Source of the DNA: Trichormus variabilis 0441
GTDB lineage: Bacteria > Cyanobacteriota > Cyanobacteriia > Cyanobacteriales > Nostocaceae
Direction: 5' to 3'
NCBI RefSeq assembly: GCF_009856605.1
Contig: NZ_CP047242.1
Span: forward strand, 5,584,501 to 5,648,500
Length of the DNA: 64,000 bases
Shown: piece by piece, positions 48,301 to 64,000 of the stretch
Layout of the letters: each line of letters opens with the position of its first letter
Numbering within the stretch: position 1 is the stretch's first letter
Translations under genes and position numbers: made by a program
The notes under the pieces: model-generated
What the model was told of the DNA's origin: nothing
Seen by the model: the letters and a program-made list of their open reading frames with translations, nothing else
Database searches by the model: none

Positions 48301-48517
48301 TCTCGCTCCTCGCTACATCAATGCTCTCAACAACAAAGGGTTAGCGTTACAAGGTTGGGGTAAATTACTTTTACAGTTATCCCAAAAACCAGAAGCAGTC
48401 AATCATTTACAAGCAGCATTAGCCGTCTTTAATAGCTCCTTAGCAATAGTTTCCGGTGATGAGAGTGTTCGCAACTTAAGAGATGAACTACAAGAATTTC
48501 TGGATAATTTAACGTGA
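45353..48517 (+). CDS. Large NTPase with C-terminal homogenised TPR repeats
   Basis: The 1054-residue protein has an N-terminal P-loop NTPase (Walker A GDGGNGKS at about 48-55; a FFDTHEAFW Walker B-like stretch near 260-275), a helical middle region, and a C-terminal TPR array (about 560-1040). Eight consecutive 48-residue TPR units (about 618-1001) are nearly identical, each with LGNLQTKLAQH ... AIQSYTSAIAAYDQALNLAP. This is a STAND-like layout in which the repeats would sense a ligand. Such proteins take part in signalling or anti-phage defence, but no effector domain is clear. The stop codon overlaps an inverted-repeat element. Confidence 0.85.
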   Translation: MSAGMGINSRKRSLVDGNRALNLFTDRHELTRVFAAYLHDEPAEKILSFSGDGGNGKSLLLKFLRTKCCKRFGADAWQKLKTKTAAEIADYIESADNDQCDLVPAILQDFGLQPNGDDQPQDPFYGLLMLRRSLSRAATELGYRLRFPLYDFACVWYLKQKNRLTREKLAELFPSEEMDLLIEIVNAVSDTSWGTIGKAVFGIFNKHLGENLLLHWQKRGLKKEDIEEIRGMDAETELMNELPRYLAQDLSAAMSQEKAPPRIVLFFDTHEAFWGGQRQQTGILYFQRDEWLRYFLAELDLKAGIVAVIAGRETPRWAQADNFQIPQKYIDIQLVNHLSSADADVYLQRAEIGDQALRQSAIAYSSVTANQVHPLLLGLSADVILQAQEHLTPEDFPKQEATLNKAKYLMNLLLKYTDREFGYAVHALSACRSFNFEIYRLLAEELHFSTTKPAFDILTEFSFVWDVEKLGENWYRIHDLLRRLNYENSNEITQQAHVVLEKHYRQQGQVAEAIYHANRLDWRRGVDEWEEVFEQALELSRYAQCRSLLEVRSELVINSDFQIGRVSQSEGDYFAQLAKYQEAQTEYLEAVAAYNRELSITPDDTATLNNKGLALESLGNLQTQLAQHTQAIQSYTSAIAAYDQALNLAPNYTQTINNKGLVLKNLGDLQTKLAQHPQAIQSYTSVIAAYDQALNLAPDYINALNNKGVALQSLGNLQTKLAQHPQAIQSYTSAIAAYDQALNLAPDYINALNNKGVALQSLGNLQTKLTQHTQAIQSYTSAITTYDQALNLAPDDTYALNNKGNALQSLGNLQTKLAQHPQAIQSYTSAIATYDQALNLAPDDTYALNNKGSVLKNLGDLQIKLTQHSEAIESYTSAIAAYDQALNLAPNYTYALNNKGFALQSLGNLQTKLAQHSEAIESYTSAIAAYDQALNLAPNYTYALNNKGNALAKLGDLQTKLAQHTQAIQSYTSAIAAYDQALNLAPRYINALNNKGLALQGWGKLLLQLSQKPEAVNHLQAALAVFNSSLAIVSGDESVRNLRDELQEFLDNLT
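47204..48355 (+). repeat. Eight 144-bp in-frame tandem repeats (TPR units)
   Basis: Units start at 47204 and recur every 144 bases. Most copies contain a GTGCGATCGC-type HIP1 site at the same position. The DNA is almost identical between several units, which implies recent duplication or gene conversion. Confidence 0.9.
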
Positions 48518-49882
<1,365 letters not shown>

Positions 49883-50186: not shown

Positions 50187-52088
50187 ATGTGTGGCATCGT
50201 TGGGTATATCGGAACTCAAGCAGCAACCGAGATTTTGTTGGCTGGGCTAGAAAAACTAGAGTATCGCGGTTACGATTCCGCAGGTATAGCTACGGTTTGG
50301 GAAGGAGATGTGAATTGTGTCAGGGCAAAGGGAAAACTCCATAACCTGCGTTCTAAACTAGAACAGTTGGCTACTCCATCTCAAATTGGTATTGGTCATA
50401 CACGCTGGGCAACTCATGGTAAACCAGAGGAGTATAATGCCCATCCCCATTTAGATACAGCCATGCGAATCGCTGTTGTGCAGAATGGGATTATTGAAAA
50501 TTACCGCGAGTTACGCGACGAACTGAAACAGAAAGGACATGAGTTTCGTTCGGAAACTGATACAGAAGTTATTCCTCACCTTATAGCCGAATTTTTAAAA
50601 AACCTCCCTTCCCCAGCGCTTCCTACCTCCTCCTCTTCCTTATTGGAAGCGATACGCCAAGCTGTTAACCACCTGCAAGGGGCATTTGCGATCGCTGTTA
50701 TCTCTGCTGACTATCCTGACGAATTGATTGTTGTCCGCCAGCAAGCGCCCCTGGTGATAGGATTCGGGCAAGGGGAGTTCTTTTGCGCCTCCGACACGCC
50801 GGCGATCGTTTCCCATACTCGCGCAGTCTTACCCCTGGAGAATGGCGAAATTGCCCGTCTGACACCCCTGGGAGTGGAGATTTATAACTTTGCTGGGGAC
50901 AGACTGAAAAAACAACCCCGCCTGCTCAACTTGAATCCCACAATGGTAGAGAAGCAGGGATTCAAACACTTCATGCTCAAGGAAATTTATGAGCAACCAG
51001 GAGTAGTCAGAGCGAGTTTAGAAGCATACTTTAATCCCGATACTAATACTGATGAATCCTTTACATCACCAGTTAATTTGGGTTTATCTGAAGAAATCTA
51101 TGCAGATTTAGAACAAATTCATATTGTTGCCTGTGGTACGAGTTGGCACGCCGCCTTAGTAGGAAAGTATTTACTTGAACAATTAGCAGGAATTTCCACT
51201 CAAGTACATTATGCTTCTGAGTATCGCTATGCCCCATCACCATTAACAGCGAATACATTGATTATCGGTGTTACTCAGTCAGGGGAAACGGCTGATACCC
51301 TAGCCGCCTTAGCGATGGAAAAAGAACGCCGCCAAGGCAAAGAAGCCAAATATCAGGCGCGACTCTTGGGTATTACCAATCGTCCAGAAAGTAGCCTTGG
51401 TCATCTTGTACCCCATATTATTAATACCCTGGCAGGGATTGAAATTGGTGTAGCAGCGACTAAAACCTTTGTTGCTCAACTTATGGCGTTTTATGCCCTA
51501 GCCTTGGATTTAGCCTATCATCGCCAAACAGTAGCACCAGATAAACTCGCAGATATTATTCAAGGTTTACGTCAGATACCTAAGGAAATCGAAGCTACCT
51601 TAGAACGTCAGGAAAAATTAACAGAACATCTAGCCCATGAATTTGCAGAAACCCAAGACTTCATCTTTTTGGGCAGAGGAATTAACTTCCCTATTGCTTT
51701 AGAAGGAGCATTGAAATTAAAAGAAATCAGCTACATTCACGCAGAAGGTTATCCGGCTGGGGAAATGAAACACGGCCCCATTGCATTATTAGATGCCAAA
51801 GTGCCGGTAGTGGCGATCGCCTATCCTGGTAGTGTGTATGAAAAAGTGATTTCCAATTCTCAAGAAGCCAAAGCCAGAGATTCCCGGTTAATTGGTGTAA
51901 CACCAGTCAATGATGGCGAAGCGGCGGAAATCTTTAACGATTTGCTTCCTGTATCATCAGTAGATGAATTACTATCGCCCATCCTCACAGTAGTGCCATT
52001 GCAACTATTGGCTTACCACATCGCCGCCCGTCGCGGTTTGGATGTCGATCAGCCTCGGAATTTAGCAAAATCAGTGACTGTGGAATAA
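50187..52088 (+). CDS. glmS: Glutamine-fructose-6-phosphate aminotransferase (isomerizing)
   Basis: GlmS makes glucosamine-6-phosphate for cell-wall synthesis. The 633-residue protein has the N-terminal nucleophile cysteine in MCGIVGYIG, the glutaminase segment GIGHTRWATHGKP, two SIS sugar-isomerase domains (CGTSWHAALVGKYL; FLGRGINFPIALEGALKLKEISYIHAEGY) and the invariant tail QPRNLAKSVTVE. The tail is the classic TnsD-recognised attachment region of Tn7-like transposons, and such an element begins 5 bases after the stop codon here. The reading frame is intact, as expected for Tn7-like insertion. Confidence 0.98.
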   Translation: MCGIVGYIGTQAATEILLAGLEKLEYRGYDSAGIATVWEGDVNCVRAKGKLHNLRSKLEQLATPSQIGIGHTRWATHGKPEEYNAHPHLDTAMRIAVVQNGIIENYRELRDELKQKGHEFRSETDTEVIPHLIAEFLKNLPSPALPTSSSSLLEAIRQAVNHLQGAFAIAVISADYPDELIVVRQQAPLVIGFGQGEFFCASDTPAIVSHTRAVLPLENGEIARLTPLGVEIYNFAGDRLKKQPRLLNLNPTMVEKQGFKHFMLKEIYEQPGVVRASLEAYFNPDTNTDESFTSPVNLGLSEEIYADLEQIHIVACGTSWHAALVGKYLLEQLAGISTQVHYASEYRYAPSPLTANTLIIGVTQSGETADTLAALAMEKERRQGKEAKYQARLLGITNRPESSLGHLVPHIINTLAGIEIGVAATKTFVAQLMAFYALALDLAYHRQTVAPDKLADIIQGLRQIPKEIEATLERQEKLTEHLAHEFAETQDFIFLGRGINFPIALEGALKLKEISYIHAEGYPAGEMKHGPIALLDAKVPVVAIAYPGSVYEKVISNSQEAKARDSRLIGVTPVNDGEAAEIFNDLLPVSSVDELLSPILTVVPLQLLAYHIAARRGLDVDQPRNLAKSVTVE

Positions 52089-52093: not shown

Positions 52094-52102
52094 TGTGGAG
52101 GA

Positions 52103-52160
52103 ATAATTCGGTTCAACAATATATAATTCGGTTCAACAATTAATAAAACGATTGAACAAT
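52103..52160 (+). repeat. Three TnsB-binding-site-like repeats in the glmS-proximal transposon end
   Basis: The 18-bp sequence ATAATTCGGTTCAACAAT occurs at 52103-52120 and 52123-52140 without mismatch, and again at 52143-52160 with four mismatches. The 20-bp phase is exact. Closely packed TnsB sites are typical of the Tn7 right end, the end that faces glmS. Confidence 0.85.
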
Positions 52161-52218
52161 AACCTCTAAAGGAGTACGATTGTACCAAGTAAAAGTGCGA
52201 TCGCTTCCAGAGGTTATT
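52158..52218 (+). promoter_or_regulatory. Inverted repeat spanning the tnsA translation start region
   Basis: AATAACCTCT (52158-52167) and AGAGGTTATT (52209-52218) are perfect 10-bp inverted repeats, 41 bases apart. The right arm contains AGAGG, the likely ribosome binding site of tnsA (8 bases before the ATG at 52222). The left arm overlaps the third TnsB-like site. Pairing would mask the ribosome binding site; alternatively this is an operator. Confidence 0.55.
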
Positions 52219-52221
52219 TTT

Positions 52222-53040
52222 ATGGTTAGGGGTAGAAGGGAATGGACTCAAGCTAAATATGAGCGATATATAAAAGAAGGTCGTGGCCGAGGAAGTGGTA
52301 AGCACTATAAACCTTGGCTTACAATCCAAGATGTTCCCTCTAAAGGACGTTCTTCTAGAACTCCTGGTTGGAAAACAAATCGAGTACATCATTTCTTCTC
52401 AGACCATGAAAAACGGCTATTTTATTTGTTTGAGTGGTCAGATATAGTCACAGATATAAGAGAGCAATTTCCTTTAGACAATCTCGATCTAGCCATGAGT
52501 ATTGCTACAGACATAGGTATAAAGTACCCTGTAGATACACAAAGTGGCACTCCTCACGTTTTAACAAGCGACTTTATGCTTACAGTCAACCGCGATGGGA
52601 AGCAGATGCAGATTGCCCGGACTGTTAAGCCGTCAACAGAACTGGAGAAAAAGCAAGTTAATGAGAAATTCGAGATAGAAAGACAATATTACTTAGCAAA
52701 GGGTATTGACTGGGGAATTATCACAGAAAAAGAAATTCCCAGGCTTTTAGCTGAAAATGTTGAGTGGGTTCATTCTGCTTATAGGCTAGAAGCAAATTCT
52801 GAAATGGACACTGCACAACTGAGTGAATTGTCAACAATTTTAAAATCTAAGCTTCAGGAAGAAGATACAACTATAAATAGAGTAACTACTGCTTTAGACA
52901 AAGAAATGAATATAAATTCCGGTACATCACTTTATGTATTTAAACATTTAATTGCTAGGAAAGAAATCCTTGTGGATCTAGTAGCAATAAAATTATCTGC
53001 TTGTCCGTCAACTAAAGTTATTGAAAAAATAATATTTTAG
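52222..53040 (+). CDS. tnsA: Transposon endonuclease TnsA
   Basis: TnsA cuts the 5' ends of the transposon and with TnsB gives cut-and-paste movement. I place the start at ATG 52222: AGAGG lies 8 bases upstream, and this numbering gives catalytic residues E63 (SDHEKRLFY), D117 (TSDFMLTV) and K136 (ARTVKPSTE), very close to E63/D114/K132 of E. coli TnsA. An in-frame TTG at 52180 with AAAGGAG upstream would add 14 residues. The protein has 272 residues, the usual length, and includes the VTDIREQFPL core. tnsB starts 22 bases after the stop. A separate tnsA, not fused to tnsB, fits the I-B1 group. Confidence 0.93.
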   Translation: MVRGRREWTQAKYERYIKEGRGRGSGKHYKPWLTIQDVPSKGRSSRTPGWKTNRVHHFFSDHEKRLFYLFEWSDIVTDIREQFPLDNLDLAMSIATDIGIKYPVDTQSGTPHVLTSDFMLTVNRDGKQMQIARTVKPSTELEKKQVNEKFEIERQYYLAKGIDWGIITEKEIPRLLAENVEWVHSAYRLEANSEMDTAQLSELSTILKSKLQEEDTTINRVTTALDKEMNINSGTSLYVFKHLIARKEILVDLVAIKLSACPSTKVIEKIIF

Positions 53041-53062
53041 ACCCACATGATAGGTAAATAAT

Positions 53063-55291
53063 ATGGTTAAAGATTTATTTGTCAATGATTTAATAGAGTG
53101 GATTGTATACCAAAACACTCATATAGTCGAAAGAATTATTTGGATAGATGAAGGTTACATTATTGCATTTGTTATAGATATTAATGCTAAGAAAGGTCTA
53201 CCTGAACCAAGGAAAATATCAGATATTTTAGAAGCTATAACTGAAGGTATTGCTTTTAAGCAGCAACAAGATCCTTGGGCAAGAATTATTCGGGATGAAA
53301 ATTTGACAGATAAGGAAAAGGAATACAGAGATAAAGCTTGGGAGATAATTTCATCATTAATTATAGAAGAACCATCAATATATTATAGAAATTTTAGAGG
53401 ATCGATGGTTAAAGAAGCGGTTGAAAAGTACAACGAAGAAAGGGATAAAGATAAATTAGTAGAAAAAACCGTCTATGGTTATTTGAGAAGATTTTGGCAG
53501 AGAGGAAAAACTATAAATGCTCTCATACCTGATTTTATCAATTCATCAGGTAAGGGCAAGATTCGAGGACAATCGGGCAAGAAGAGAGGAAGACCAAGAA
53601 AATATGCACATGACCCAGATATTGGTGAAGGTGTAAATGTTACAGAAGAAGATAGAAAGATTTTTAGAGTATCTATAAGCAAATTTTACAATAATCCAAA
53701 AGAAAACTACTTAACAACAGCCTATGAATTAATGGTGAAAGAATATTACAAGGAAGGAATTAGATATGACGAGAATGGTGTTCAAAAATCTATATTAACC
53801 CCAACTGATAAAATACCTACAATTACTCAATTCAAATACTGGTATCAACTTGAACAGGATGATGTTACCAAAACTTTAACATCTCGAAAAGGAGCCAAGC
53901 GAGTAGCTTTAGAGAATAGAGCAATTTTGGGAAACTCTAAGATGGAAACTATTGGCCCTGGTTCTAGATATCAAATTGATGCCACAGTTGCTGATGTATA
54001 TTTAGTTTCAAAATATAACCGTGACTGGATAATTGGTAGACCAGTTATCTATGTAATTATTGATGTTTTTAGTAGAATGATTACAGGTGTTTATGTCGGT
54101 TTAGAAGGCCCATCTTGGATAGGAGCAATGATGGCACTAGCCAATGTAGCTACAGATAAAACCCTGTTTTGCCAGGAATATAACATTAATATTACTGAAA
54201 ATGAATGGCCTTGCAATCAAATGCCAGATGCAATTTTAGGAGATAGGGGAGAATTAGCAGGTATGACAGTAGAAACATTAATCCCTAATCTTTATGTTCG
54301 TATTGAAAATGCAGCTTCCTATAGAGCAGATTGGAAAGGGTTAGTAGAAAGACACTTTCGTATAATTCATGAATATGTAAAACCTTTTTTACCTGGTTAT
54401 GTGGATACGGATTTTAGGCAAAGAGGTGCAAGGGATTATAGGCTTGATGGCAAACTTGATATAGATCAATTTACTGAGATTATTATTCGTTTAATTGTTC
54501 ACCATAACAATAAACCTCTTACTGAATATGAAAGAGATGAAGCAATGATTGCTGATGATACCCCTCCTATACCTAGAGAGTTGTGGAAGTGGGGTATCGC
54601 CAATCGTTCTGGCAGACTCAGAACTTTTTCTGAAGATATTGTCAAATTGAACTTGATGCCTACTGAGAAAGCAACTATTACTGCTAAAGGCATCAAAATG
54701 AGAGGTAAGGAGATGTACTATACCTGTGATAGTGCTAAAAATGAGCAATGGTTTGAAAAAGCTAGAAGTAATCTCCTTTCTAAGTCAGAAAAATCATTGA
54801 TTGTATCTTATGACATCAGAAAGCCAAACTTCATTTATCTTCCATCTAGTGATGGTAGAGATTTTGAAAAATGTTTTCTTATTGACTTAGAAGGGCGGTA
54901 TGCTAATAAAAACTTTCATGATATTGAATATCTGCTTGCTTATGAAGAATTGCAAAGACAGAAAAGCCAAGGTAAACAGCTACAAGAAAAGGTAGATTTA
55001 ATAGCTGATATTGAAAGCATAGTAGATAGAGCAGAAAAAATGACTGATGCTTCTCAATATCATAATTTAAGTAAGAGCAAGAAAGTTTCTGGAATAAGAG
55101 ATAATAGGGCTTTTGAAAAGGCTAAACGACGAGAGAATGAAGGATTTGAATTAGCAATTACAGATAATCAGAGCAGTTTTCAGGTTGCAGAGAGTACAGC
55201 AGAAACCTCCGAACAGCCAGAATCACTACAGCCAAACCATCTGAATCTTCTTAAGAAAAAGCGACAGGAGCGAAAACGTGGACAGAATTGA
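53063..55291 (+). CDS. tnsB: Transposase TnsB (DDE family)
   Basis: TnsB binds the repeats in the transposon ends and joins the 3' ends to target DNA. The 742-residue protein has N-terminal DNA-binding helical domains, a retroviral-integrase-type core with D306 (QIDATVADVY), D394 (ILGDRGELAG) and E429 (DWKGLVERHF), a beta-barrel region and a basic, Gln/Ser-rich C-terminal tail likely to contact TnsC. The order and spacing match the DDE triad of Tn7 TnsB. Its 3' end overlaps tnsC by 14 bases, indicating coupled translation. No HIP1 octamer occurs in the gene. Confidence 0.96.
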   Translation: MVKDLFVNDLIEWIVYQNTHIVERIIWIDEGYIIAFVIDINAKKGLPEPRKISDILEAITEGIAFKQQQDPWARIIRDENLTDKEKEYRDKAWEIISSLIIEEPSIYYRNFRGSMVKEAVEKYNEERDKDKLVEKTVYGYLRRFWQRGKTINALIPDFINSSGKGKIRGQSGKKRGRPRKYAHDPDIGEGVNVTEEDRKIFRVSISKFYNNPKENYLTTAYELMVKEYYKEGIRYDENGVQKSILTPTDKIPTITQFKYWYQLEQDDVTKTLTSRKGAKRVALENRAILGNSKMETIGPGSRYQIDATVADVYLVSKYNRDWIIGRPVIYVIIDVFSRMITGVYVGLEGPSWIGAMMALANVATDKTLFCQEYNINITENEWPCNQMPDAILGDRGELAGMTVETLIPNLYVRIENAASYRADWKGLVERHFRIIHEYVKPFLPGYVDTDFRQRGARDYRLDGKLDIDQFTEIIIRLIVHHNNKPLTEYERDEAMIADDTPPIPRELWKWGIANRSGRLRTFSEDIVKLNLMPTEKATITAKGIKMRGKEMYYTCDSAKNEQWFEKARSNLLSKSEKSLIVSYDIRKPNFIYLPSSDGRDFEKCFLIDLEGRYANKNFHDIEYLLAYEELQRQKSQGKQLQEKVDLIADIESIVDRAEKMTDASQYHNLSKSKKVSGIRDNRAFEKAKRRENEGFELAITDNQSSFQVAESTAETSEQPESLQPNHLNLLKKKRQERKRGQN

Positions 55292-56948
55292 GAGTGAACT
55301 GGTTAAAATTCCTAATGGAGAACTAGCAGTTATTGCCAGATATATAGATCAAAAACTGCCAGAATACAACACTAATCCATTAATTCAGGCATTACCTCCT
55401 ATCCTATCAGCAGCAGAATTTATAGATAAAGTAGCCAGAGAACCAAATTTTGATGAACAAGAGAGAGAGCTAGAACCACATTATAGATTTCATTGTATTG
55501 AGAGGTTATCTAGATATTTTGACCCTCAAAATAAAACTCTTGAATTACAAAAAGTTATTTGTACGCTTATCATGACAGGCTATCTGTCAAGGAACCTTTT
55601 AAAACCTGAATATGCAAATCGCTCTAGGCAAATTTATAATGCAATAGGTAATGGAGGAGGTAAAAATTTAGAAAACTATGTTAATCTTCCTACATCTGCG
55701 TCCGGCTTAACTCTAATTGGCCCATCAGGTATTGGAAAGACTACAAATTTCAAAAATATTCTTGAGCTTTATCCCCAAATAATTTTTCATCCTGATTATA
55801 GTGTTTACCAAATAGTTTGGCTGCGGGTAGATTGCCCTAAAACTTTAAAGGGGTTATGTATAGATACTTTTGCAGGTATCGATAAATTGTTAGGAACTAA
55901 TTTATTAAAGAAATTTAACCCAGCACGCACATCTGAAGATTATCTATTGGCTCAACTTGCACAAACAGCACACACTCATCATCTAGGAGTTTTGGTGATT
56001 GATGAAATACAAAATTTAGCAACTGCAAAAAGAAATAGAGACGAAATATTAAATTTTTTAGTAAAGCTCGATAATACTATTGGAATTCCAGTTATTCGTG
56101 TAGGTACGAATGAAGCCATTAGTTTTCTTCAAGGTAATCTTAGAAATGCTAGAAGAAATACTGGAGAAGGAAGTAGAATGTGGGATAGAATGGTAAATAA
56201 TGATGAATGGTGTTACTTTTTAGAAGGAATATGGGAATACCAATGGACAAAAACACCTGTTCATTTCTCGGATGAAATAAAAGAAGTTTTTTATGATGAA
56301 AGCCAGGGAATTATTGATATTGCTATAAAACTTTACAAAATGGTTCAATGGAGAGCGATTTCAATAGGTGACCAAGAAATTATTACGGTTGATCTGATTC
56401 GTCAAGTAGCTAAAGAAGGATTGTATTTAGTAAAGCCAATGCTAGATGCAATTAGGTTAGGGGACAGAGAGTGGATGATTAAATATAAGGATATTGCTCC
56501 TCTCGATATTACGGAATATCACAATAGATGTGTATCTGAGATTGATGCTAAAGATTTGACAGAGATTAAGAGATTAGCTAAAAAGCAGCAGAATCAGCAG
56601 AAAGTATCTCCGAAGCTCAATTATGTAATTAGTGAGCTGTTGAAATTGGAAGTAGAATCTGGTAAAGCAAAGGAATGTGCAGAACAAATTGTTTATAGTC
56701 ATGAAGATCCAGACATTCCAATTCCATCTTTAGTTAATAAGGCATATGCTCTTGCTTTGCAAGGATGTCAAGTAAATGAGAGTCTTGCTAAAACAAGTAC
56801 CAGGAAAGCTAAATTAAAGACAAAGTACCAAGAGAATGATATTCGGCGAATTGTCGAGAATGCCAAGAAAGACAAAAAATCTGCATACGAGGATTTGAAA
56901 TTAGCAGGTATAATCAAAAATCCAGTTGAAGATTTTATCAATATTTAG
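55278..56948 (+). CDS. tnsC: AAA+ transposition regulator TnsC
   Basis: TnsC is the ATP-dependent link between target selectors (TnsD or TniQ-Cascade) and the TnsAB transposase. The 556-residue protein starts at a GTG with CAGGAGCG upstream and overlaps tnsB by 14 bases. It has Walker A GPSGIGKTT at 148-156 and Walker B GVLVIDE at 237-243, flanked by N-terminal and long C-terminal extensions. Its size is like that of Tn7 TnsC and larger than the short TnsC of type V-K elements. tniQ starts 7 bases after the stop. Confidence 0.95.
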   Translation: MDRIESELVKIPNGELAVIARYIDQKLPEYNTNPLIQALPPILSAAEFIDKVAREPNFDEQERELEPHYRFHCIERLSRYFDPQNKTLELQKVICTLIMTGYLSRNLLKPEYANRSRQIYNAIGNGGGKNLENYVNLPTSASGLTLIGPSGIGKTTNFKNILELYPQIIFHPDYSVYQIVWLRVDCPKTLKGLCIDTFAGIDKLLGTNLLKKFNPARTSEDYLLAQLAQTAHTHHLGVLVIDEIQNLATAKRNRDEILNFLVKLDNTIGIPVIRVGTNEAISFLQGNLRNARRNTGEGSRMWDRMVNNDEWCYFLEGIWEYQWTKTPVHFSDEIKEVFYDESQGIIDIAIKLYKMVQWRAISIGDQEIITVDLIRQVAKEGLYLVKPMLDAIRLGDREWMIKYKDIAPLDITEYHNRCVSEIDAKDLTEIKRLAKKQQNQQKVSPKLNYVISELLKLEVESGKAKECAEQIVYSHEDPDIPIPSLVNKAYALALQGCQVNESLAKTSTRKAKLKTKYQENDIRRIVENAKKDKKSAYEDLKLAGIIKNPVEDFINI

Positions 56949-56955
56949 CTTCTAA

Positions 56956-57906
56956 ATGCTTAGTTTTTTCCCAACTCTGTATCCCGATGAACTTTTATAT
57001 AGCACTTTAGCTAGATACCATATTCGGAGTGGAAATAAAAGTTTCAAGCAAACTGACTTAGAGCTATTCGGTTACAGTTCCCAACAAATATGCAAAATTA
57101 CCTTAACTAATAATTTAAATTATTTAGTGAAAAACTTACCTTTACGCTCCCAGCAAAAAGTTGAGAATTTACTACAAAATCATACTTTATATTCCTTTTA
57201 TGCAACTTTATTAATGCCGCAGGAGGCTTGGCTGCTGAAAAACTCAATGAGTAATAAATTCAGTGGGTCTATACTAGATTTTGCTAAAGTGGCTAATAAT
57301 TCTAGTGATGATTCAAAAAAATTTTTAAAATTTTGCCCTGAATGTTTAGAGAAAGATACCCAAAAGTATGGTGAACCTTACTGGCATAGAATACATCAAG
57401 TCCCTGGCATTTTAGTTTGTCCAATTCATCGTGTTGTTTTACACAATAGCTGTATAGAAGTTGAATCGAAAGGCATACATTATCATGCTGCCAGCATAGA
57501 TAATTGTTTATTAGCAAATAATGTGAAAAAATTGACAAATAAAACTGTAGAAACACTTTCAATACTGGCACATGATATTAATTGGCTAATTCATAGCAGT
57601 TTTGCCTTTCAAGGTTTGGCTTGGCTTCGCGCTCAGTACCAGCGTTACTTATTGGATAAAGGACTGCTAAAAACCTTTGCTGGTGGCAAGTTTAAGTTTA
57701 ATGATTGTGGTTTTGCCCAGCTTATATTTGAGTTTTATGGTCAAGAATCCTTAGAAGCCCTCAATCCAAAGCTGACCCAAAATCAAGGTAAATATTTTTC
57801 TCACTGCTTGTTTGGATGCGACTTAAACCCAGCAATTGACCGCATAACTCATATCTTAATGATAAAATTTTTAGCAAATTCTATAGAAGAGTTCTTTCAG
57901 TCATAA
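56956..57906 (+). CDS. tniQ: TniQ, target-selection adaptor (short TniQ/TnsD family member)
   Basis: The 316-residue protein starts with FFPTLYPDELLYSTLARYHIRSG, the TniQ-family signature. A zinc-finger set follows: C127-x2-C130, H144/H147 (YWHRIHQ) and C155-x2-H158. The short length, without an extended C-terminal DNA-binding region, suggests the Cascade-linked TniQ rather than the glmS-binding TnsD. It lies between tnsC and cas6. The alternative that this is the homing protein and the gene at 63221 the Cascade adaptor cannot be excluded without the full length of the latter. Confidence 0.85.
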   Translation: MLSFFPTLYPDELLYSTLARYHIRSGNKSFKQTDLELFGYSSQQICKITLTNNLNYLVKNLPLRSQQKVENLLQNHTLYSFYATLLMPQEAWLLKNSMSNKFSGSILDFAKVANNSSDDSKKFLKFCPECLEKDTQKYGEPYWHRIHQVPGILVCPIHRVVLHNSCIEVESKGIHYHAASIDNCLLANNVKKLTNKTVETLSILAHDINWLIHSSFAFQGLAWLRAQYQRYLLDKGLLKTFAGGKFKFNDCGFAQLIFEFYGQESLEALNPKLTQNQGKYFSHCLFGCDLNPAIDRITHILMIKFLANSIEEFFQS

Positions 57907-58074
57907 TCTTCATATACAAAATTTAACTAAATTAATAAAAAGCAATAATAACTAATCAAAATTATTTTTATTGATTATTATTTTAAGTATTTTCAGATTA
58001 GTGAATCAGGTAATCTAAGTAATAAGGTAGTTATTTCATACCTGGTTGTATCTGCTTAAATCTGCTATATAAAA

Positions 58075-58758
58075 ATGATTATTGATAGTAACTTAGTTAC
58101 GCAGCTTCCCTCAGAATCATCTTCAAAGCCAAGAGAGCTTTTAATGTCTCAGTTTCCATATATGGATTTAACTTTTAGCCTTACGGGTGAGACATTACCT
58201 TTCGACCACGGCTATGAATTATTTTCTGCGATCGCCCACTTTGAACCCAAACTACATACATTAGACACGTTGGGAATTCAGACCATTGCAGGTATTCCCA
58301 AGGATGGTGTAATTAATCTGACCCAAAATTCTAGGCTTCGTATTCGGATACCAGTAAATCAGGTACGTTTGGTTTATCCATTGGCGGGTAAGTCACTGAG
58401 AATTGGCAAGCATACAATTCGTTTGGGTATTCCTGACATCTGTTTGCTTCAACCTGCGGAGAAACTGCGATCGCGCATTGTGGTAATAAGAGGCTATGAA
58501 GAACCTGAAAGTTTTTTAGTCGTAGCGCAGCGTCAGCTAGAACAACTGGGTATCCAAGCAATTGCTAGCATTCCCACCAAAGCCAATGGCAAACCAATAC
58601 GTAGGACTATCAAAATTAAGCGATTTACAGTCGTGGGTTTTGGATTAGAAGTTATAAATTTAAGCGATGAAGACTCACTGAGGTTGCAAATACATGGTGT
58701 AGGAGGAAAGCAAAAGATGGGTTGTGGACTCTTCATGCCTATTAAGGAAAGGCAATAG
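58075..58758 (+). CDS. cas6: CRISPR RNA endonuclease Cas6 (type I-B, Cmx6-like)
   Basis: Cas6 cuts the CRISPR transcript within the repeat and holds the 3' hairpin of the guide. The 227-residue protein ends with the glycine-rich loop GVGGKQKMGCGLFMP, characteristic of the second RAMP fold. It starts with FPYMDLTFSLTGETLPFDHGYELFSAIAHFEP, where the histidine in AIAHFEP is a candidate catalytic residue. The first 23 residues may not be translated, since an ATG at 58144 (MSQFPYMDLTF) is closer to the domain. It is the first cas gene, 168 bases after tniQ, perhaps with its own promoter. Confidence 0.88.
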   Translation: MIIDSNLVTQLPSESSSKPRELLMSQFPYMDLTFSLTGETLPFDHGYELFSAIAHFEPKLHTLDTLGIQTIAGIPKDGVINLTQNSRLRIRIPVNQVRLVYPLAGKSLRIGKHTIRLGIPDICLLQPAEKLRSRIVVIRGYEEPESFLVVAQRQLEQLGIQAIASIPTKANGKPIRRTIKIKRFTVVGFGLEVINLSDEDSLRLQIHGVGGKQKMGCGLFMPIKERQ

Positions 58759-58775
58759 CAATTACTCGAAAGCAG

Positions 58776-60314
58776 ATGATGAAGAGAGCAGATAACCCCA
58801 AAATTCAGCTTAATCTCGGCGATCCTAGTATGACTTTATTGCATCGTGCTGGGGTTGCAGGACTTTGGATGACGCTCAAAAAACTGGAAAAAATCTATCC
58901 AACACCTGCTGAACGTATTGGTAATTTAACTTGGTTGCTAACCCCTCACTATATCAATCTTGATTGGGAAGGACAGGATTTCACAGTTTTAGACTGGTTG
59001 CTGAAGCAATCATTTCAAATCAGCGATGAGGGTTTAATTTCCCTGACAGGGTTAGATTCTCAAAACATGGATATTCAAAATCAAATAATTATCCATCAAG
59101 GTATCACAGCCACTTTTACACAACATAATAAATTTTTTAAGTCTGCGGGTCAACAATCTAAGCAACTAATTATTGATGGTATTCAGGTTAGGGTTGATTA
59201 TAAGAAAGCTGCTTCCTATGCTCATCAACATTTTGCTAAACATTTATGTGACCAGTACGGACAATTGCTAAAAGAGCCAATTGGTATCAGGGGATGGCTC
59301 TATCCAGGAGCAGTAGTTCGCCATTATGCTTTTAAAGAACAAACAGCATTTGAAGAAAAAGCAGAATATGCTCTAGCGTTGTTGTTCGCTCCTATGGCTT
59401 GTCAATATTTTGTGCTGCGATCGCACACCGAACCATCACATACAAACTATGTTTTGGTTATTCCTGAAGTAATTGATTTAGAACTTTATGCACATTTTTT
59501 GTGGTGTTTGGGTAACTTAGATTATAAACATTTTCACGTATCTAGCTTAGGAGATGCTGGATTAAAATTTCTTAATTATAAAACAACACAAATGCCTACT
59601 TCCAATTTTTTAAAACGATGTCAAATAATCTTTTTTAGTACAAAAGCTTGGTCAGAACAGCAAAAAACTCGTGCAGAAATAGCAATCATAGAATTAAATT
59701 CTTCAGTTAATTATCTTTATAAGCTTAGTTGTATTTGTTTTCCAGAATGTCAAATTGTTTTATATAAAAATCAACATTATTTGCTTCCAAGTTTAATAAA
59801 AGGAATAATCGCCAATAATCTAGCAATGGGTCGGTCTTGGTGGGCTAATTGGATTTCATTTATTAAAAATAAAAAATCATTTAAACAATTTACTGATGAG
59901 TATAAAGGAATTAATAAGATGATTCAGGACTCAGAATGGGATATAGAAGCTCAAAAGCTATTTATTCAAGCTTGTCATGAAGCATTAAGAAAAATATATG
60001 CCAAAATTTATAGCAGAACAAAAGAAGGTGAATACGCTCAAATAGAACGAGAAAATACACGCATTTTATCTCAGTTAAAACGCTGCACCAATACTGACAA
60101 TTTCCGAAAATTTATTGCAGAGTTTTGGGGAAGGGCAGGGCAAATAGCAATTCTGGAAGAACATTGGATGGAATTACTTCCATTGACTACAGGGATAGGC
60201 AATTGGAAAGTGGCCAGGGACTTAACTTTTATTGCAATGGCTAGCTACCCAAAGAATAAAATAACAGAGGTAGAGGTAAAACCATCACAAATATCGGAGC
60301 TAAATACTGAATAA
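58776..60314 (+). CDS. cas8: Cascade large subunit Cas8 (type I-B, Cmx8-like)
   Basis: The 512-residue protein matches the type I-MYXAN Cas8 family found in type I-B systems: MTLLHRAGVAGLWMTLKKLEKIY near the N-terminus, then WLYPGAVVRHYAFKEQTAF and a C-terminal helical part (RKFIAEFWGRAGQIAILEEHWMELLP). It would recognise the PAM and start target unwinding. No HD nuclease or helicase domain is present. It follows cas6 by 17 bases and precedes cas7 by 58 bases. Confidence 0.85.
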   Translation: MMKRADNPKIQLNLGDPSMTLLHRAGVAGLWMTLKKLEKIYPTPAERIGNLTWLLTPHYINLDWEGQDFTVLDWLLKQSFQISDEGLISLTGLDSQNMDIQNQIIIHQGITATFTQHNKFFKSAGQQSKQLIIDGIQVRVDYKKAASYAHQHFAKHLCDQYGQLLKEPIGIRGWLYPGAVVRHYAFKEQTAFEEKAEYALALLFAPMACQYFVLRSHTEPSHTNYVLVIPEVIDLELYAHFLWCLGNLDYKHFHVSSLGDAGLKFLNYKTTQMPTSNFLKRCQIIFFSTKAWSEQQKTRAEIAIIELNSSVNYLYKLSCICFPECQIVLYKNQHYLLPSLIKGIIANNLAMGRSWWANWISFIKNKKSFKQFTDEYKGINKMIQDSEWDIEAQKLFIQACHEALRKIYAKIYSRTKEGEYAQIERENTRILSQLKRCTNTDNFRKFIAEFWGRAGQIAILEEHWMELLPLTTGIGNWKVARDLTFIAMASYPKNKITEVEVKPSQISELNTE

Positions 60315-60372
60315 ACTTCATATTTTTTGATTTGATTAAGAACAAAATATTAATTGTTTAGGTAATGGTGGA

Positions 60373-61347
60373 ATGTTTCATCTGTTTGGTAATATTTTGA
60401 CTAGTTATGGAACCGCCGCTAATAATCGTGGTGAAAATGAAGGTAATACCACTACGTTACAAAAATTAATTTGGAAAGGTGAAGTTCACTCTACTGTTTC
60501 ATCTGAGGCAATTCGTTGGGCATTGCGATATTATTGGCAAAATGCTGGCTATCCTGTGAATAGACGTTGGGATGAAAATGCTCAACCAGTACCCGATCAC
60601 ATCTTGCAAGATCCTAATTTTGATGATATTCGCTTCATTGATGATGATGTCTTGGGATTTATGCAAGCGGAAGCAGCAAAAGTTGAAGCAGCAGTTGAAT
60701 CCGAAGTTGAAATCCAGAACTCAACTCAAGATGAGGACAAAAAACTTTCTCAAGGTAAGGAGAAAGAAACTGCAAAACGTAAGCGTAAGGAAAAACCTAA
60801 AGGGAAAATAACTACTAGACGAGGTGTATTAGAAGTCACTCGTGCAGTTTCAACAATTCCTTATGCTGGTGATCTTACTTTCAATGCTATGAGTGGAAAG
60901 AAAGGACGAACATCTCTTTATTCTACAGAAGTTCATGCTACTCGATATCAATATGGCTTCGCATTAACACCCAATAGCCTCAAAGATAAATCTCGCATTA
61001 ATGCTGTCCTCGATAGCTTAATTTCTATTGGAGAAGTGGCAGGAAATCACGCTCGTTTTCTCTATGATTTTTCTCCTGATAGCATCATATTACGGTGGAC
61101 ACACGATTTCTCACCTCGGTTACTTTACTGTTTTGAAGAAGATGAACTTAGAAATATATCAACACCGGATTTAGTAAGGCGGGTAGAATCTGGAGATATA
61201 GACCCTAAAGAATTATGGATAGGAGGGGCAATTTCTAGCACTCTGGAAGATTTAGGGGCAAATGTGTTTCCCGGAGTGAAGACAACAGTTGAAGCATTAA
61301 AACAGGTGATTATTGAAGATTTGCAGTTGTCGTTAAGGAGTTCATGA
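60373..61347 (+). CDS. cas7: Cascade backbone subunit Cas7 (DevR-like)
   Basis: Cas7 coats the guide RNA in multiple copies. The 324-residue protein begins FHLFGNILTSYGTAANNRGENEG, followed by VHSTVSSEAIRWALRYYWQNAGYP, typical of the DevR/Cas7 family. Residues about 105-155 form a highly charged Glu/Lys linker, longer than in canonical members, before the TRRGVLEVTRAVSTIPYAGD beta region. It ends one base before cas5, suggesting translational coupling. Confidence 0.9.
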   Translation: MFHLFGNILTSYGTAANNRGENEGNTTTLQKLIWKGEVHSTVSSEAIRWALRYYWQNAGYPVNRRWDENAQPVPDHILQDPNFDDIRFIDDDVLGFMQAEAAKVEAAVESEVEIQNSTQDEDKKLSQGKEKETAKRKRKEKPKGKITTRRGVLEVTRAVSTIPYAGDLTFNAMSGKKGRTSLYSTEVHATRYQYGFALTPNSLKDKSRINAVLDSLISIGEVAGNHARFLYDFSPDSIILRWTHDFSPRLLYCFEEDELRNISTPDLVRRVESGDIDPKELWIGGAISSTLEDLGANVFPGVKTTVEALKQVIIEDLQLSLRSS

Positions 61348-61348
61348 T

Positions 61349-61981
61349 ATGACGACAATTGCCTTAAAAGTAGAAGTTCCCATAGCTTGTTTTCGGCAGT
61401 CTCGTGCTAGGGAATATGGCGAAACTTACCCTGTACCACCACCATCGACAGTATATGGAATGTTACTATCTCTTGTTGGAGAAGTGGATAGATACAAACA
61501 CTGCGGTGTGAAGCTGGCGATCGCACTTCTATCTGAACCAGAAAAGTCAACTGTTATTCGCACCTTTCACCGATTTAAGACGAAGAATATCCATGACTCT
61601 AAAAATAATAAACCTGATTATCAGGAGTTATTAACTAATATAGAATTTATAGTTTGGGTGGATGCTGGAGTAGATAAAGCTAAACCAAATTTAGTGGAAC
61701 GTTTAGCAGAGGCATTGACTAACCCGGCTTCTATTAATAGGTTTGGTGGATTATGTTTAGGTGAAAGTCGGGATTTAGTGAATGATGTTACCCTTTTACC
61801 TAAAAATTACTATGCAGAATCAATGCGATGGTTAATTCGAGATGAATATGGGTTACTAACTTTACCTTACTGGGTAGACCATGTAGGTTCGCGGGGAACG
61901 CGATGGCTACGTTACGAGATTCAGAAATGTCCAGTCTTTCAACCACCTGAATTATCTTGGACTTCAGTTCAAAGTAATTAG
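61349..61981 (+). CDS. cas5: Cascade subunit Cas5 (DevS-like)
   Basis: Cas5 caps the 5' handle of the guide RNA. The 210-residue protein starts ATTIALKVEVPIACFRQSRAREYGETYPVPPPSTVYGMLLSLVG in pattern (RAMP strand followed by the P-rich loop and Y-G-M-L-L-S-L), a DevS/Cas5 hallmark. It begins one base after cas7. It is the last cas gene; the CRISPR array starts 276 bases downstream. No cas1, cas2 or cas3 gene follows. Confidence 0.9.
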   Translation: MTTIALKVEVPIACFRQSRAREYGETYPVPPPSTVYGMLLSLVGEVDRYKHCGVKLAIALLSEPEKSTVIRTFHRFKTKNIHDSKNNKPDYQELLTNIEFIVWVDAGVDKAKPNLVERLAEALTNPASINRFGGLCLGESRDLVNDVTLLPKNYYAESMRWLIRDEYGLLTLPYWVDHVGSRGTRWLRYEIQKCPVFQPPELSWTSVQSN

Positions 61982-62257
61982 AGGATATCTTTACTTTTGC
62001 AAGCACCTCTGCTTGGGAAATTTAAAAACTATAGAAAGTAGCCTTAATTCGTTATTCTACAAGCCTTTTAAGGATTTTATATGCTTCTAGAGTGCTTGCA
62101 ATTTCCTGGAATGCTCTAAATACAAGAGTTAGGAGTGTTAAAAACTTTACTTTTGCTATGAATAGCTATTAATTTTTGCAACTTGGCTAACCTTAAAGAG
62201 TAGGTGCTTGTAAAATTGATGTAGAGCTTAGGCAAGTCAGCAAATGTGGCTATCGCT
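61982..62257 (+). promoter_or_regulatory. CRISPR leader region
   Basis: This 276-base AT-rich gap lies between cas5 and the first repeat and presumably carries the array promoter. No open frame or clear promoter boxes could be assigned by eye. Confidence 0.5.
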
Positions 62258-62436
62258 GTGCTTTAACATTAGATGTCGTTAGGCGTTGAGCAGGGGGCTG
62301 GGTCATCATATTGATCTCGCTCAGTCCGGGTGCTTTAACATTAGATGTCGTTAGGCGTTGAGCAACGATCGCAACCCTTGATTCATGAAATGCTTGGTAG
62401 CGTGCTTTAACATTAGATGTCGTTAGGCGTTGAGCA
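62258..62436 (+). CRISPR. Short CRISPR array: three 35-bp repeats, two 37-bp spacers
   Basis: Identical 35-base repeats are at 62258-62292, 62330-62364 and 62402-62436. Each begins GTGCTTTAACATTAG and ends GGCGTTGAGCA; the ends TGCT and AGCA are complementary, and an internal TTTAAC/GTTAGG stem could be the Cas6 substrate. Spacers (62293-62329 and 62365-62401) are both 37 bases. No match to either was seen elsewhere in the window. With no adaptation genes, the array is unlikely to gain spacers on its own. Confidence 0.95.
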
Positions 62437-62506
62437 GGATTCCCAGAGGCGAATGTATTTACGGGTTATTGTCTTTGCTAGAAATATGTTGTCAGTGAAG
62501 CCAAGA

Positions 62507-62700
62507 TTAGCCCTCTTGATTACCATCATTCCGAGAAATTTTACTGAGAATTTTTTCCCACTGCTGAATCTGGTTCTGTATTTGTAATTGGGGATGGGCT
62601 TCCCCCCGCCGTAGGCGATCGCTCAAATCTTGACTATCATCAACAGACAAATCCTGACCGCTCAATCGCTCACGGTAAAGAGCAATCAGTTCGGTTAGGG
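62507..62700 (-). other. Probable -1 frame extension of the RHH-like gene
   Basis: This open frame of 64 codons plus stop lies directly after the slippery heptamer at 62701-62707. It would add about 63 residues (beginning ALTELIALYRERLSGQD and ending KISRNDGNQEG), hydrophilic and helical. It has no own start codon with a ribosome binding site. Together with the upstream 76-residue frame, a -1 shift would give a protein of about 139 residues. Confidence 0.55.
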
Positions 62701-62925
62701 CTTTTTTATTGCTTGATTATCCTCCTGGGTCAGAGAACTCACATTGACTGGGATCAGCTTTCTGCCAATTCTCTCGACAAACTCAGACCGACTTAAATCC
62801 ATGCTGTCAGCGATCGCATCTAATCCATCAATCCCGGTAGGAGTTAGGGCTAGGTTAACTCTCTTCTTTACCTCATCGTACAGTTCTGGTACGTCTTTTT
62901 GACCTTTTTGCCCTTTCTTACCCAT
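62695..62925 (-). CDS. Ribbon-helix-helix-like DNA-binding protein, possible CAST regulator
   Basis: The 76-residue product has a Lys/Gly-rich start (MGKKGQKGQKDVPELYDEVKK), then RVNLALTPTGIDGLDAIADS and MDLSRSEFVERIGRKL, the strand-helix-helix pattern of Arc/CopG repressors. It lies in the transposon between the CRISPR array and the divergent tnsD-like gene. The frame ends two codons after a perfect A AAA AAG heptamer (62701-62707), and the -1 frame stays open for 64 codons. AGGAGG is 13 bases upstream of the heptamer. Programmed frameshifting or a single-base deletion are both possible. Its target may be the 19-bp repeats at 63010-63064. Confidence 0.65.
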   Translation of the reverse strand: MGKKGQKGQKDVPELYDEVKKRVNLALTPTGIDGLDAIADSMDLSRSEFVERIGRKLIPVNVSSLTQEDNQAIKKP

Positions 62926-63220
62926 TGCCGTCTACTTTTTACATTCCTCCCAATCATAGTAAACACATTCAGCACTTTAAGTTATACATTAAAACTTTTT
63001 CCAACAGGTTAGGTATTGTGTAATGCCTGAGTTGGTTGGATAATATAGGTATTGCGTAATGCCTAAATAGTCATTTTTTTAGGGATATGAGTAACTAATA
63101 CCACCGTTTGGCTTGCCAACATCTAAACGGCTTACTTTTCATGGGCAATCATTAATTGCTGGTTATGTAATTCAAATTAATAAAAATCTGCTAAATGATT
63201 TGGTCATTTTTAACAACTAT
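62926..63220. promoter_or_regulatory. Divergent promoter region between RHH-like gene and tnsD
   Basis: This 295-base region separates the two divergent genes and holds two 19-bp direct repeats. Nothing else was recognised. It probably contains both promoters. Confidence 0.5.
63010..63064. repeat. Two 19-bp operator-like direct repeats
   Basis: TAGGTATTGTGTAATGCCT at 63010-63028 and TAGGTATTGCGTAATGCCT at 63046-63064 differ by one base and are 36 bases apart, start to start. Each has an imperfect palindrome (AGG.ATT....AAT.CCT). Their place between divergent genes suggests repressor binding sites. Confidence 0.65.
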
Positions 63221-64000
63221 ATGGTGAGTTTTTTCCCTCAACCTTATCCAGATGAAATTTTATATAGTGTTATTGCTCGTTATCACATTAGAAGTGGCAA
63301 TACGAGTCCAAAAATTACATTACAAGATTTATTTAAGTCACAGACTACTGTGGCGACAGTAGATTTACCATCGAACCTTAGTAATTTAATTAAAAACCTA
63401 CAATTTATCTCAAATTACCAAGTTGAAGAGTTGATATATAAACATACTCTCTACCCTTTATATAGCCCTTTTTTGCCAGCAAACAGGTCTAGTCAGGTAC
63501 TGGAATCTATGAAAGGAGATTATGGGGGAGATATTCATACAAGAGCCGGAATTATGGCAAGCTCAATTACTATGCCGAAATATTTGCGGTTTTGTCCAAC
63601 TTGCTGGGAAGAAGACTTAAAAAATTATGGCGAACCTTACTGGCATCGCATCCATCAAATACCAGGGATTTTAGTTTGTCCATTTCATGGTGAAGTTTTG
63701 CAAGATAGCCTAGCTCCTTTACATGGTTTTAATAAGCATGAATATTATGCAGCTAGTACAGACAACTGTTCTATTACTAAAGAACCCAGTATTCTTAGCC
63801 CTGACACACTGAAAAAATTACTAATATTAGCCAAAGATTTTTGGTGGTTACTCAATAGTGAAATACCTTGCCAAGAGCCACAGTGGTTTCGCAAACAGTA
63901 CACAAATCTGATGATTGAGCAGGGTTTTGCAACTCCAACTGGTCGAATTTACCAGAACAAACTACTAGATAATTTTTTGTTCTTTTATGGTCAAGAAATG
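63221..64000 (+). CDS. tnsD: TnsD-like TniQ-family target selector, 3' end outside window
   Basis: An open frame of 260 codons starts at ATG 63221 and runs off the window. It begins MVSFFPQPYPDEILYSVIARYHIRSG and has the same zinc-finger set as the tniQ at 56956: C125-x2-C128, H142/H145 in YWHRIHQ, C153-x2-H156. Since the element sits next to glmS and a shorter TniQ is already present, this is most likely the glmS-tail-binding TnsD, which should have a longer C-terminal DNA-binding domain beyond the window. The two proteins are clearly paralogous but divergent. Confidence 0.85.
   Translation, partial: MVSFFPQPYPDEILYSVIARYHIRSGNTSPKITLQDLFKSQTTVATVDLPSNLSNLIKNLQFISNYQVEELIYKHTLYPLYSPFLPANRSSQVLESMKGDYGGDIHTRAGIMASSITMPKYLRFCPTCWEEDLKNYGEPYWHRIHQIPGILVCPFHGEVLQDSLAPLHGFNKHEYYAASTDNCSITKEPSILSPDTLKKLLILAKDFWWLLNSEIPCQEPQWFRKQYTNLMIEQGFATPTGRIYQNKLLDNFLFFYGQEM

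Follow-up and report, generated by a model that had tools for sequence, protein, structure and literature searches.

A transposon that can choose its target by two routes raises the question of whether the two are controlled together or apart. In the Tn7-like elements that home to glmS, TnsD binds the glmS end and calls TnsC and TnsA/TnsB; TniQ, Cascade and CRISPR RNA (crRNA) direct insertion elsewhere. The question arises for a locus in Trichormus variabilis 0441, in a stretch of 64,000 nt (the window; C1:5584501-5648500 of a genome of 7,096,012 bases in five contigs). The chromosome was also read past the window end, and positions above 64000 are continued window coordinates. The element at this locus, located directly after glmS, is almost certainly AvCAST (Tn7743), the type I-B1 CRISPR-associated transposon (CAST) of T. 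variabilis ATCC 29413. Sequence comparison suggests that AvCAST and its nearest relatives probably have a switch dedicated to TnsD homing, in which a ribbon-helix-helix-like repressor would act on two palindromes and, through programmed −1 frameshifting, would exist in short and long forms. Such a frame break would be a property of a widespread cyanobacterial family.

The regulator gene (62507..62925, minus strand) sits between the CRISPR array and tnsD and is divergent from tnsD. Frame 0 encodes 76 aa (62925-62695); the −1 frame goes on to 62507, with a total of 139 aa. Relatives P0130 and P0145 are annotated as ribbon-helix-helix or CopG proteins. The window regulator scores 15.4 bits against RHH_1 (PF01402), under the Pfam cut-off of 20.5; two of its relatives exceed the cut-off, P0194 with 22.9 and P0193 with 23.7. 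A structure model (38 sequences) has a pLDDT of 68, and most of the 50 fold matches listed for it are CopG, Arc, AtaR, TacA and similar proteins, with a best E-value of 0.6 and no significant match.

A single scan of named genomes, from which the records nearest to the window genome may be absent, produced 25 loci with a related Cas8. Ten of them include at least part of tnsD, and six of the ten have the regulator. It is also present in the window and in Nostoc carneum NIES-2107, there ∼19 kb beyond cas8. In all eight cases (six loci, the window and NIES-2107) the regulator adjoins tnsD in divergent orientation. Among the remaining four tnsD loci, three (L036, L035 and L032) carry other small genes upstream of tnsD, and L029 holds a piece of tnsD only. 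The small gene of L036 is helix-turn-helix-like (E 6e-5, under the cut-off) and that of L035 has a weak PadR-like match; assignment of the L032 tnsD-side open reading frame (ORF) to the helix-turn-helix type had no Pfam backing and was rejected. A broken regulator copy (L130) was seen near cas5 and cas7 in genome G174, where the stretch covered is without tnsD.

Two palindromic sites, identified by sequence comparison as candidate operators, lie between the regulator gene and tnsD: site 1 (AGGTATTGTGTAATGCCT) at 63011..63028 and site 2 (AGGTATTGCGTAATGCCT) at 63047..63064, both given on the plus strand. They are the sole exact matches to AGGTATTGYGTAATGCCT in the 7.1-Mb genome; a genome scan with two mismatches allowed added one further, imperfect palindrome match. 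The two 18-base palindromes are 36 bases apart in the window and in L023, L024 and L026, and 34 bases apart, with at most three mismatches, in L028, L033 and L045; the sequence GATAAT between them is kept in six of these seven sequences. In NIES-2107 a single palindrome match was found. In front of tnsA, cas6 and the array no palindrome was detected, even when four mismatches were tolerated on one strand and three on the other, and for this reason we infer that the regulator acts on its own gene and tnsD. A scan for sigma-70 patterns around tnsD was uninformative (3 found versus 3.6 expected). In the mechanism that we propose, the repressor, encoded divergently from tnsD, would bind the two palindromes flanking the tnsD promoter and would control homing apart from the RNA-guided route; it would have a short form and a longer one made by −1 frameshifting.

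The frame of the window regulator breaks at the slippery heptamer A AAA AAG (62701..62707, minus strand), 13 nt downstream of AGGAGG, and goes on in the −1 frame. Among seven aligned element copies the frame-0 stop is located 1-4 codons past A AAA AAG (C AAA AAG in L045), and the −1 stretch is 39-96% identical to the AvCAST stretch. Nine element copies, L130 among them, were compared in 36 pairs, of which 34 show a C-frame dN/dS below 1; the median is about 0.46 for the C-frame and about 0.15 for the N part. Constraint on the C-frame is thus present but weak, the pairs not being independent. In the dnaX-type −1 frameshift cassette a Shine-Dalgarno-like stretch lies 10-14 nt upstream of A AAA AAG. 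The regulator resembles this cassette in having A AAA AAG with a Shine-Dalgarno-like stretch upstream; it differs in the lack of a well supported downstream stem (z −1.73, no covarying pair after the slippery site) and in its product, a protein of DNA-binding type.

Relatives of the regulator were found in 165 of the 388 genomes of the order that were searched. The sample analysed had 115 sequences, or 109 after near-duplicates (same first 100 nt) were dropped, the L024 copy among them; it consists of the best-scoring loci and 55 hand-picked stretches, most chosen for a short frame, and is not random. The frame is shorter than 130 aa in 93 relatives, and at least 35 further codons follow in the −1 frame for 43 of them and in the +1 frame for 12. 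When a junction motif was required as well, 32 of the 93 remained in −1 and none in +1; one match (L128) was judged to be due to chance and dropped, which leaves 31. The 31 junctions are A AAA AAG (7), G GGA AAR (10), T TTG GGG (2) and YTG GGG GAR (12), i.e. a canonical heptamer in 19; the motif was written after examples had been seen and favours Gly and Lys codons, so that heptamer frequency is not unbiased. A Shine-Dalgarno-like match of at least five bases is present in 12 of the 31 motif members versus 13.5% of 1417 background windows, and AGGAGG or GGAGG stands 13 bases upstream of the heptamer in all seven A AAA AAG members (one of which is the broken L130 copy).

A profile of the C-terminal domain built from the 31 sequences recovers all of them when each is left out. 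Among the 109 relatives it found the domain in the −1 frame 35 times (four outside the training set, with L118, which has C AAA AAG, found although outside the 31), in the +1 frame once (L206) and in frame 0 never. Most of the 109 are without the domain by this profile; where present in the family, the domain appears to be almost always in the −1 frame. Most of what the protein database returned was the short frame-0 piece of the regulator. A read-through query found one natural in-frame fusion there whose N part is intact (P0194, 116 aa); P0192, in which the N part itself has a break further upstream, was not counted as a second one. There are also single-frame relatives of the regulator, L119-L122, L124 and L125, with frames of 181-202 aa. 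Two of these that were scanned (L120, and P0193, the L119 protein) have a GIY-YIG-like C-terminal part, under the Pfam cut-off, and in L120 and L122 the single-frame gene is directly upstream of cas6 or cas8.

Programmed −1 recoding of the regulator is the best reading of these comparisons, because random mutation would hardly hold one frame relation over such divergence. Several observations weigh against it: selection on the C-frame is weak (two of the 36 pairs have dN/dS above 1), one element copy has C AAA AAG, the downstream stem shows no covariation and Shine-Dalgarno enrichment outside the A AAA AAG group is negligible (5/24 versus the 13.5% background). All four speak for a rival view, in which the frame was broken by mutation long ago and the C-terminal stretch in −1 is a decaying remnant. 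We consider this explanation unlikely given the frame distribution of the domain over the 109 relatives, the variety of slippery sequences that occupy the same junction, the constant position of AGGAGG or GGAGG in the A AAA AAG group and the intact N part of the fusion P0194. The −1 product could also come from slippage of RNA polymerase, not the ribosome, on a run of A or G, and runs of A6 and G5 do occur among the junctions. Yet a heptamer suited to tandem slippage fits 19 of the 31 sites (though the motif used for picking favours such codons) and Shine-Dalgarno-like stretches lie upstream in the A AAA AAG group, which makes polymerase slippage improbable as well. We also considered the second frame as a separate, internally started gene; this was rejected, since at 24 of the 31 junctions that frame has no ATG, GTG or TTG in the 15 codons preceding or the 3 codons following the junction (seven have one).

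Identity with AvCAST was concluded from gene order, domains, active-site residues, ends, empty sites in relatives, host identity and published descriptions; to be set against it, the element was identified by its host, gene content and repeat end and not by the sequence of Saito et al. 2021. An 8-kb sample of C2 is 100% identical to T. variabilis ATCC 29413 plasmid NC_007410.1, and in an 8-kb sample of C4, 7,162 bp in one piece are 100% identical to plasmid NC_007411.1 of the same strain (a second place was also counted). These matches support T. variabilis ATCC 29413, or a strain almost the same, as the host, and the element would be AvCAST or an isolate-level copy. A close AvCAST relative in another strain is very unlikely in view of these 100% matches of 7.2 kb and 8 kb, even though C2 has 362,032 bp versus 366,354 for the ATCC 29413 plasmid, so that the assemblies are not identical, and close relatives of AvCAST with Cas8 at 92-93% do exist. 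The junction is another point against the main explanation. We compared 18 glmS loci, the window's own among them. Three relatives (G001, G012 and G010) have an uninterrupted site with the distal flank directly after glmS. The empty site of G010 is ATAAA-TACGAATATTTAAATA-AATATTTG; here the element separates ATAAA, on its left side, from AATATTTG, on its right side. Comparison of the G010 site with both flanks shows that 16 bp of the site are gone and that a 5-bp target duplication is absent (left flank ATAAA versus right flank AATAT). The right end starts 5 bases past the glmS stop here versus 24-25 bases in FACHB-3921 and in G015, a relative that shares the FACHB-3921 end type. The uninterrupted site contains two copies of ATAAAT, which makes it plausible that slippage later deleted sequence at the junction; the data fit a junction altered after insertion in the present AvCAST copy. 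A target duplication is a mark of fresh insertion, not of family identity. Further points against the main explanation come from the spacers: neither AvCAST spacer had a match in plasmids or phages (its own genome was not searched), and the 24-nt spacer cores had no exact match in viral contigs. The lost 16 bp, the missing duplication and a short array with only two spacers would suit a stranded relic that is no longer mobile, but all core frames are open, catalytic residues are kept, both ends are present and a review describes AvCAST as active in E. coli (PMC12719977). We therefore regard a relic as quite unlikely, and AvCAST itself as the preferred explanation.

The transposon system itself is already known; apart from its full boundaries and the changed junction it offers little novelty. 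The element spans 52094 to 83462 (31,369 bp), with its distal part outside the window, and has TGT...ACA termini with three TnsB-type sites at either end. A site scan placed the right end at 52094..52160 (plus strand). Its terminus, TGTGGAGGAATA, begins with the terminal TGT itself at 52094, five bases past the glmS stop, and is followed by TnsB-type sites ATTCGGTTCAACAAT at 52106 and 52126 and a diverged copy at 52146. The left terminus, at 83462, reads inward TGTAGACAAAGA; then come ATTCGGTTAAACAAT (83436) and more sites at 83379 and 83314. At both ends the spacing from the terminus to the first site is 12 bases. Because nine look-alike sites (at most four mismatches) occur inside the 31 kb, isolated weak TnsB-like sites mean little; clustered strong sites at the ends do count. 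The first-pass annotation, made on the window, had left the presence of a distal Tn7-like end past 64 kb to be checked, and the end at 83462 settles this point. It had also described a full type I-B CAST gene set inserted at an intact glmS; every gene that it named is present, in the order given.

The host gene glmS (50187..52088, plus strand; ORF of 633 aa), whose 3′ end is the attachment site, is intact, with its stop codon at 52086-52088. As a protein, GlmS is 100% identical to the one encoded next to the Nostoc parmelioides FACHB-3921 element. The gene tnsA (52222..53040, plus strand) encodes 272 aa from ATG, with TTG at 52180 also possible, and matches PF08721 and PF08722; the protein aligns to Tn7 TnsA (1f1z, E 2e-49) and keeps the residues aligned with E63, D114 and K132 (Tn7 numbering). 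The separate gene tnsB (53063..55291, plus strand) encodes a DDE transposase that aligns to Tn7 TnsB (7pik, E 5e-112); the residues D306, D394 and E429 proposed earlier are all three in the sequence. The AAA+ regulator gene tnsC (55278..56948, plus strand), aligned to Tn7 TnsC, has Walker A at 148 and Walker B at 239. The two TniQ-family genes noted in the first pass differ in domain content. The gene tnsD (63221..65131, plus strand, with the window ending at 64000) encodes the 636-aa glmS target selector with the whole TnsD domain (PF15978 1-355 of 355, E 4e-126); the 316-aa product of tniQ (56956..57906, plus strand) has PF06527 and only the first third of this domain (PF15978 positions 1-107 of 355). 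The partial domain fits the published view of the I-B1 group, in which the CRISPR-coopting TniQ keeps part of the TnsD domain and appears to be a truncated TnsD (PMC11406308). The element thus has the type I-B1 traits: separate tnsA and tnsB with catalytic residues, a short TniQ with a full TnsD and Tn7-type ends. Its location fits the logic of TnsD homing to glmS. Three more short TniQ genes occur in the genome (C1:2700578, 2935213 and 3987714), possibly in other CAST or Tn5053-like elements.

The four Cascade genes occupy 58075-61981, all on the plus strand: cas6 (58075..58758; PF09559, E 9e-68), type I-B cas8 (58776..60314), cas7 (60373..61347; E 6e-59 to 8fcj Cas7) and cas5 (61349..61981; PF09704, E 2e-12). 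Both cas7 and tnsB are without a Pfam match, yet both match solved relatives. Residues 384-499 of Cas8 match the separate Cas11 of 8fcj. An internal Cas11 start within cas8 is likely, because Met382, which is invariant in 23 aligned Cas8 sequences (the window sequence included) and would be the start codon of a candidate cas11 at 59919, after AAAGGA, opens this stretch. The CRISPR array (62258..62436, plus strand), identified by repeat finding, is short, with three identical 35-nt repeats ending in GCA and two 37-nt spacers. The repeat matches a CRISPR-DR33-like model below the gathering score and is confined to the array within the genome (up to three mismatches allowed). No cas1, cas2 or cas3 domain was found in the 22 element ORFs scanned against Pfam, the distal part included (one ORF was cut and other short ORFs were not scanned), in line with the first-pass description; the genome has a single Cas1 match, at C1:160419, a long way from the element. 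The type I-B Cascade of PmcCAST (Tn7744, type I-B2) is related to the one here, whose Cas8 matches 8fcj (PmcCAST) with E 7e-93. PmcCAST differs in having a fused TnsA-TnsB and a tRNA-targeting TnsD (PMC11406308).

AvCAST is described in the same source as Tn7743 of type I-B1, with a TniQ-targeted glmS site (PMC11406308), and both RNA-guided and TnsD-guided transposition have been reported for it (PMC12719977, PMC11406308). In a table of 2026 (PMC13199841), the entry ‘Trichormus variablis ATCC 29413 CAST’, referenced to Saito et al. 2021, has the values NAT and GCA; if the GCA column is taken as the repeat end, GCA equals the end of the repeat found here. The element has in common with AvCAST the host, the glmS site, separate tnsA and tnsB, tnsC, a TniQ of truncated-TnsD type, TnsD, Cas6/8/7/5, no adaptation genes found and a repeat ending in GCA. 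Host plasmid identity, gene content and repeat end thus bear out the first-pass view that this is AvCAST or a close relative, already described. No difference from the published description was found; the regulator and the frame break are unmentioned in its parts at hand.

Comparison with the related loci suggests that modules have been swapped among elements at glmS. In FACHB-3921, identity to AvCAST is 63% for TnsA, 67% for TnsB and 92-97% for the proteins from TnsC to TnsD; the break falls in roughly the first 70 bases of tnsC, and both ends of this element (L023, G003 contig 46) are of another end type than those of AvCAST. The FACHB-3921 element combines a tnsC-tniQ-cas-tnsD module like that of AvCAST with another tnsAB core. 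TnsA and TnsB of NIES-2107 are 90-92% identical to AvCAST, and Cas8 is 64% identical. In Calothrix membranacea FACHB-236 the values are 67% for TnsB and 92% for TnsD. L028, beside glmS, has kept cas genes, array, regulator and tnsD; tnsA, tnsB, tnsC and half of tniQ were not found there.

The cargo includes type I restriction genes hsdM, hsdS and hsdR (L002:16100 to L003:7559, continued positions 66100-77559), a UPF0175/PIN-like pair between hsdS and hsdR and, behind hsdR, ietA-ietS (AAA ATPase and subtilase). A gene for a TPR-CHAT protein lies just inside the left end (L003:10061-13093, continued positions 80061-83093, minus strand). The next gene past this end (L003:13592-17053, minus strand) encodes a NACHT-HEAT protein with near-identical HEAT repeats; its sequence is found directly after glmS in G001 and G012. 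Before glmS, the window contains 144-bp tandem repeats at 47172-48356 inside a repeat-rich gene (45353-48517) and an intergenic 21-bp tandem array at 49001-49251.

Known regulators of CASTs provide a comparison for the one described here. A review of 2024 names regulators, in the parts at hand, only for type I-F3 and V-K CASTs. Arc_1/Arc_2 and CvkR of type V-K CASTs are likewise small proteins, of Arc or MerR type, encoded divergently from a targeting gene (PMC9938897); they adjoin cas12k and no frame break is described for them in the parts at hand, whereas the AvCAST regulator adjoins tnsD. The AvCAST regulator further differs from them in that no further site match was found elsewhere in the element. 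A ribbon-helix-helix regulator at tnsD, or one with frameshifting, did not appear among the papers listed by the literature searches, which did not include the founding description of AvCAST (Saito et al. 2021). The regulator is possibly new, and the comparative case for it is strong.

If the proposed mechanism is true, type I-B1 elements would control safe-site homing separately from RNA-guided movement. Deletion of TnsD has been reported to raise RNA-guided insertion (PMC12719977), so that a regulator acting on tnsD only may be of practical use. Since the protein database gave mostly the short frame-0 piece, a regulator family that would depend on frame slippage may easily be overlooked by gene prediction.

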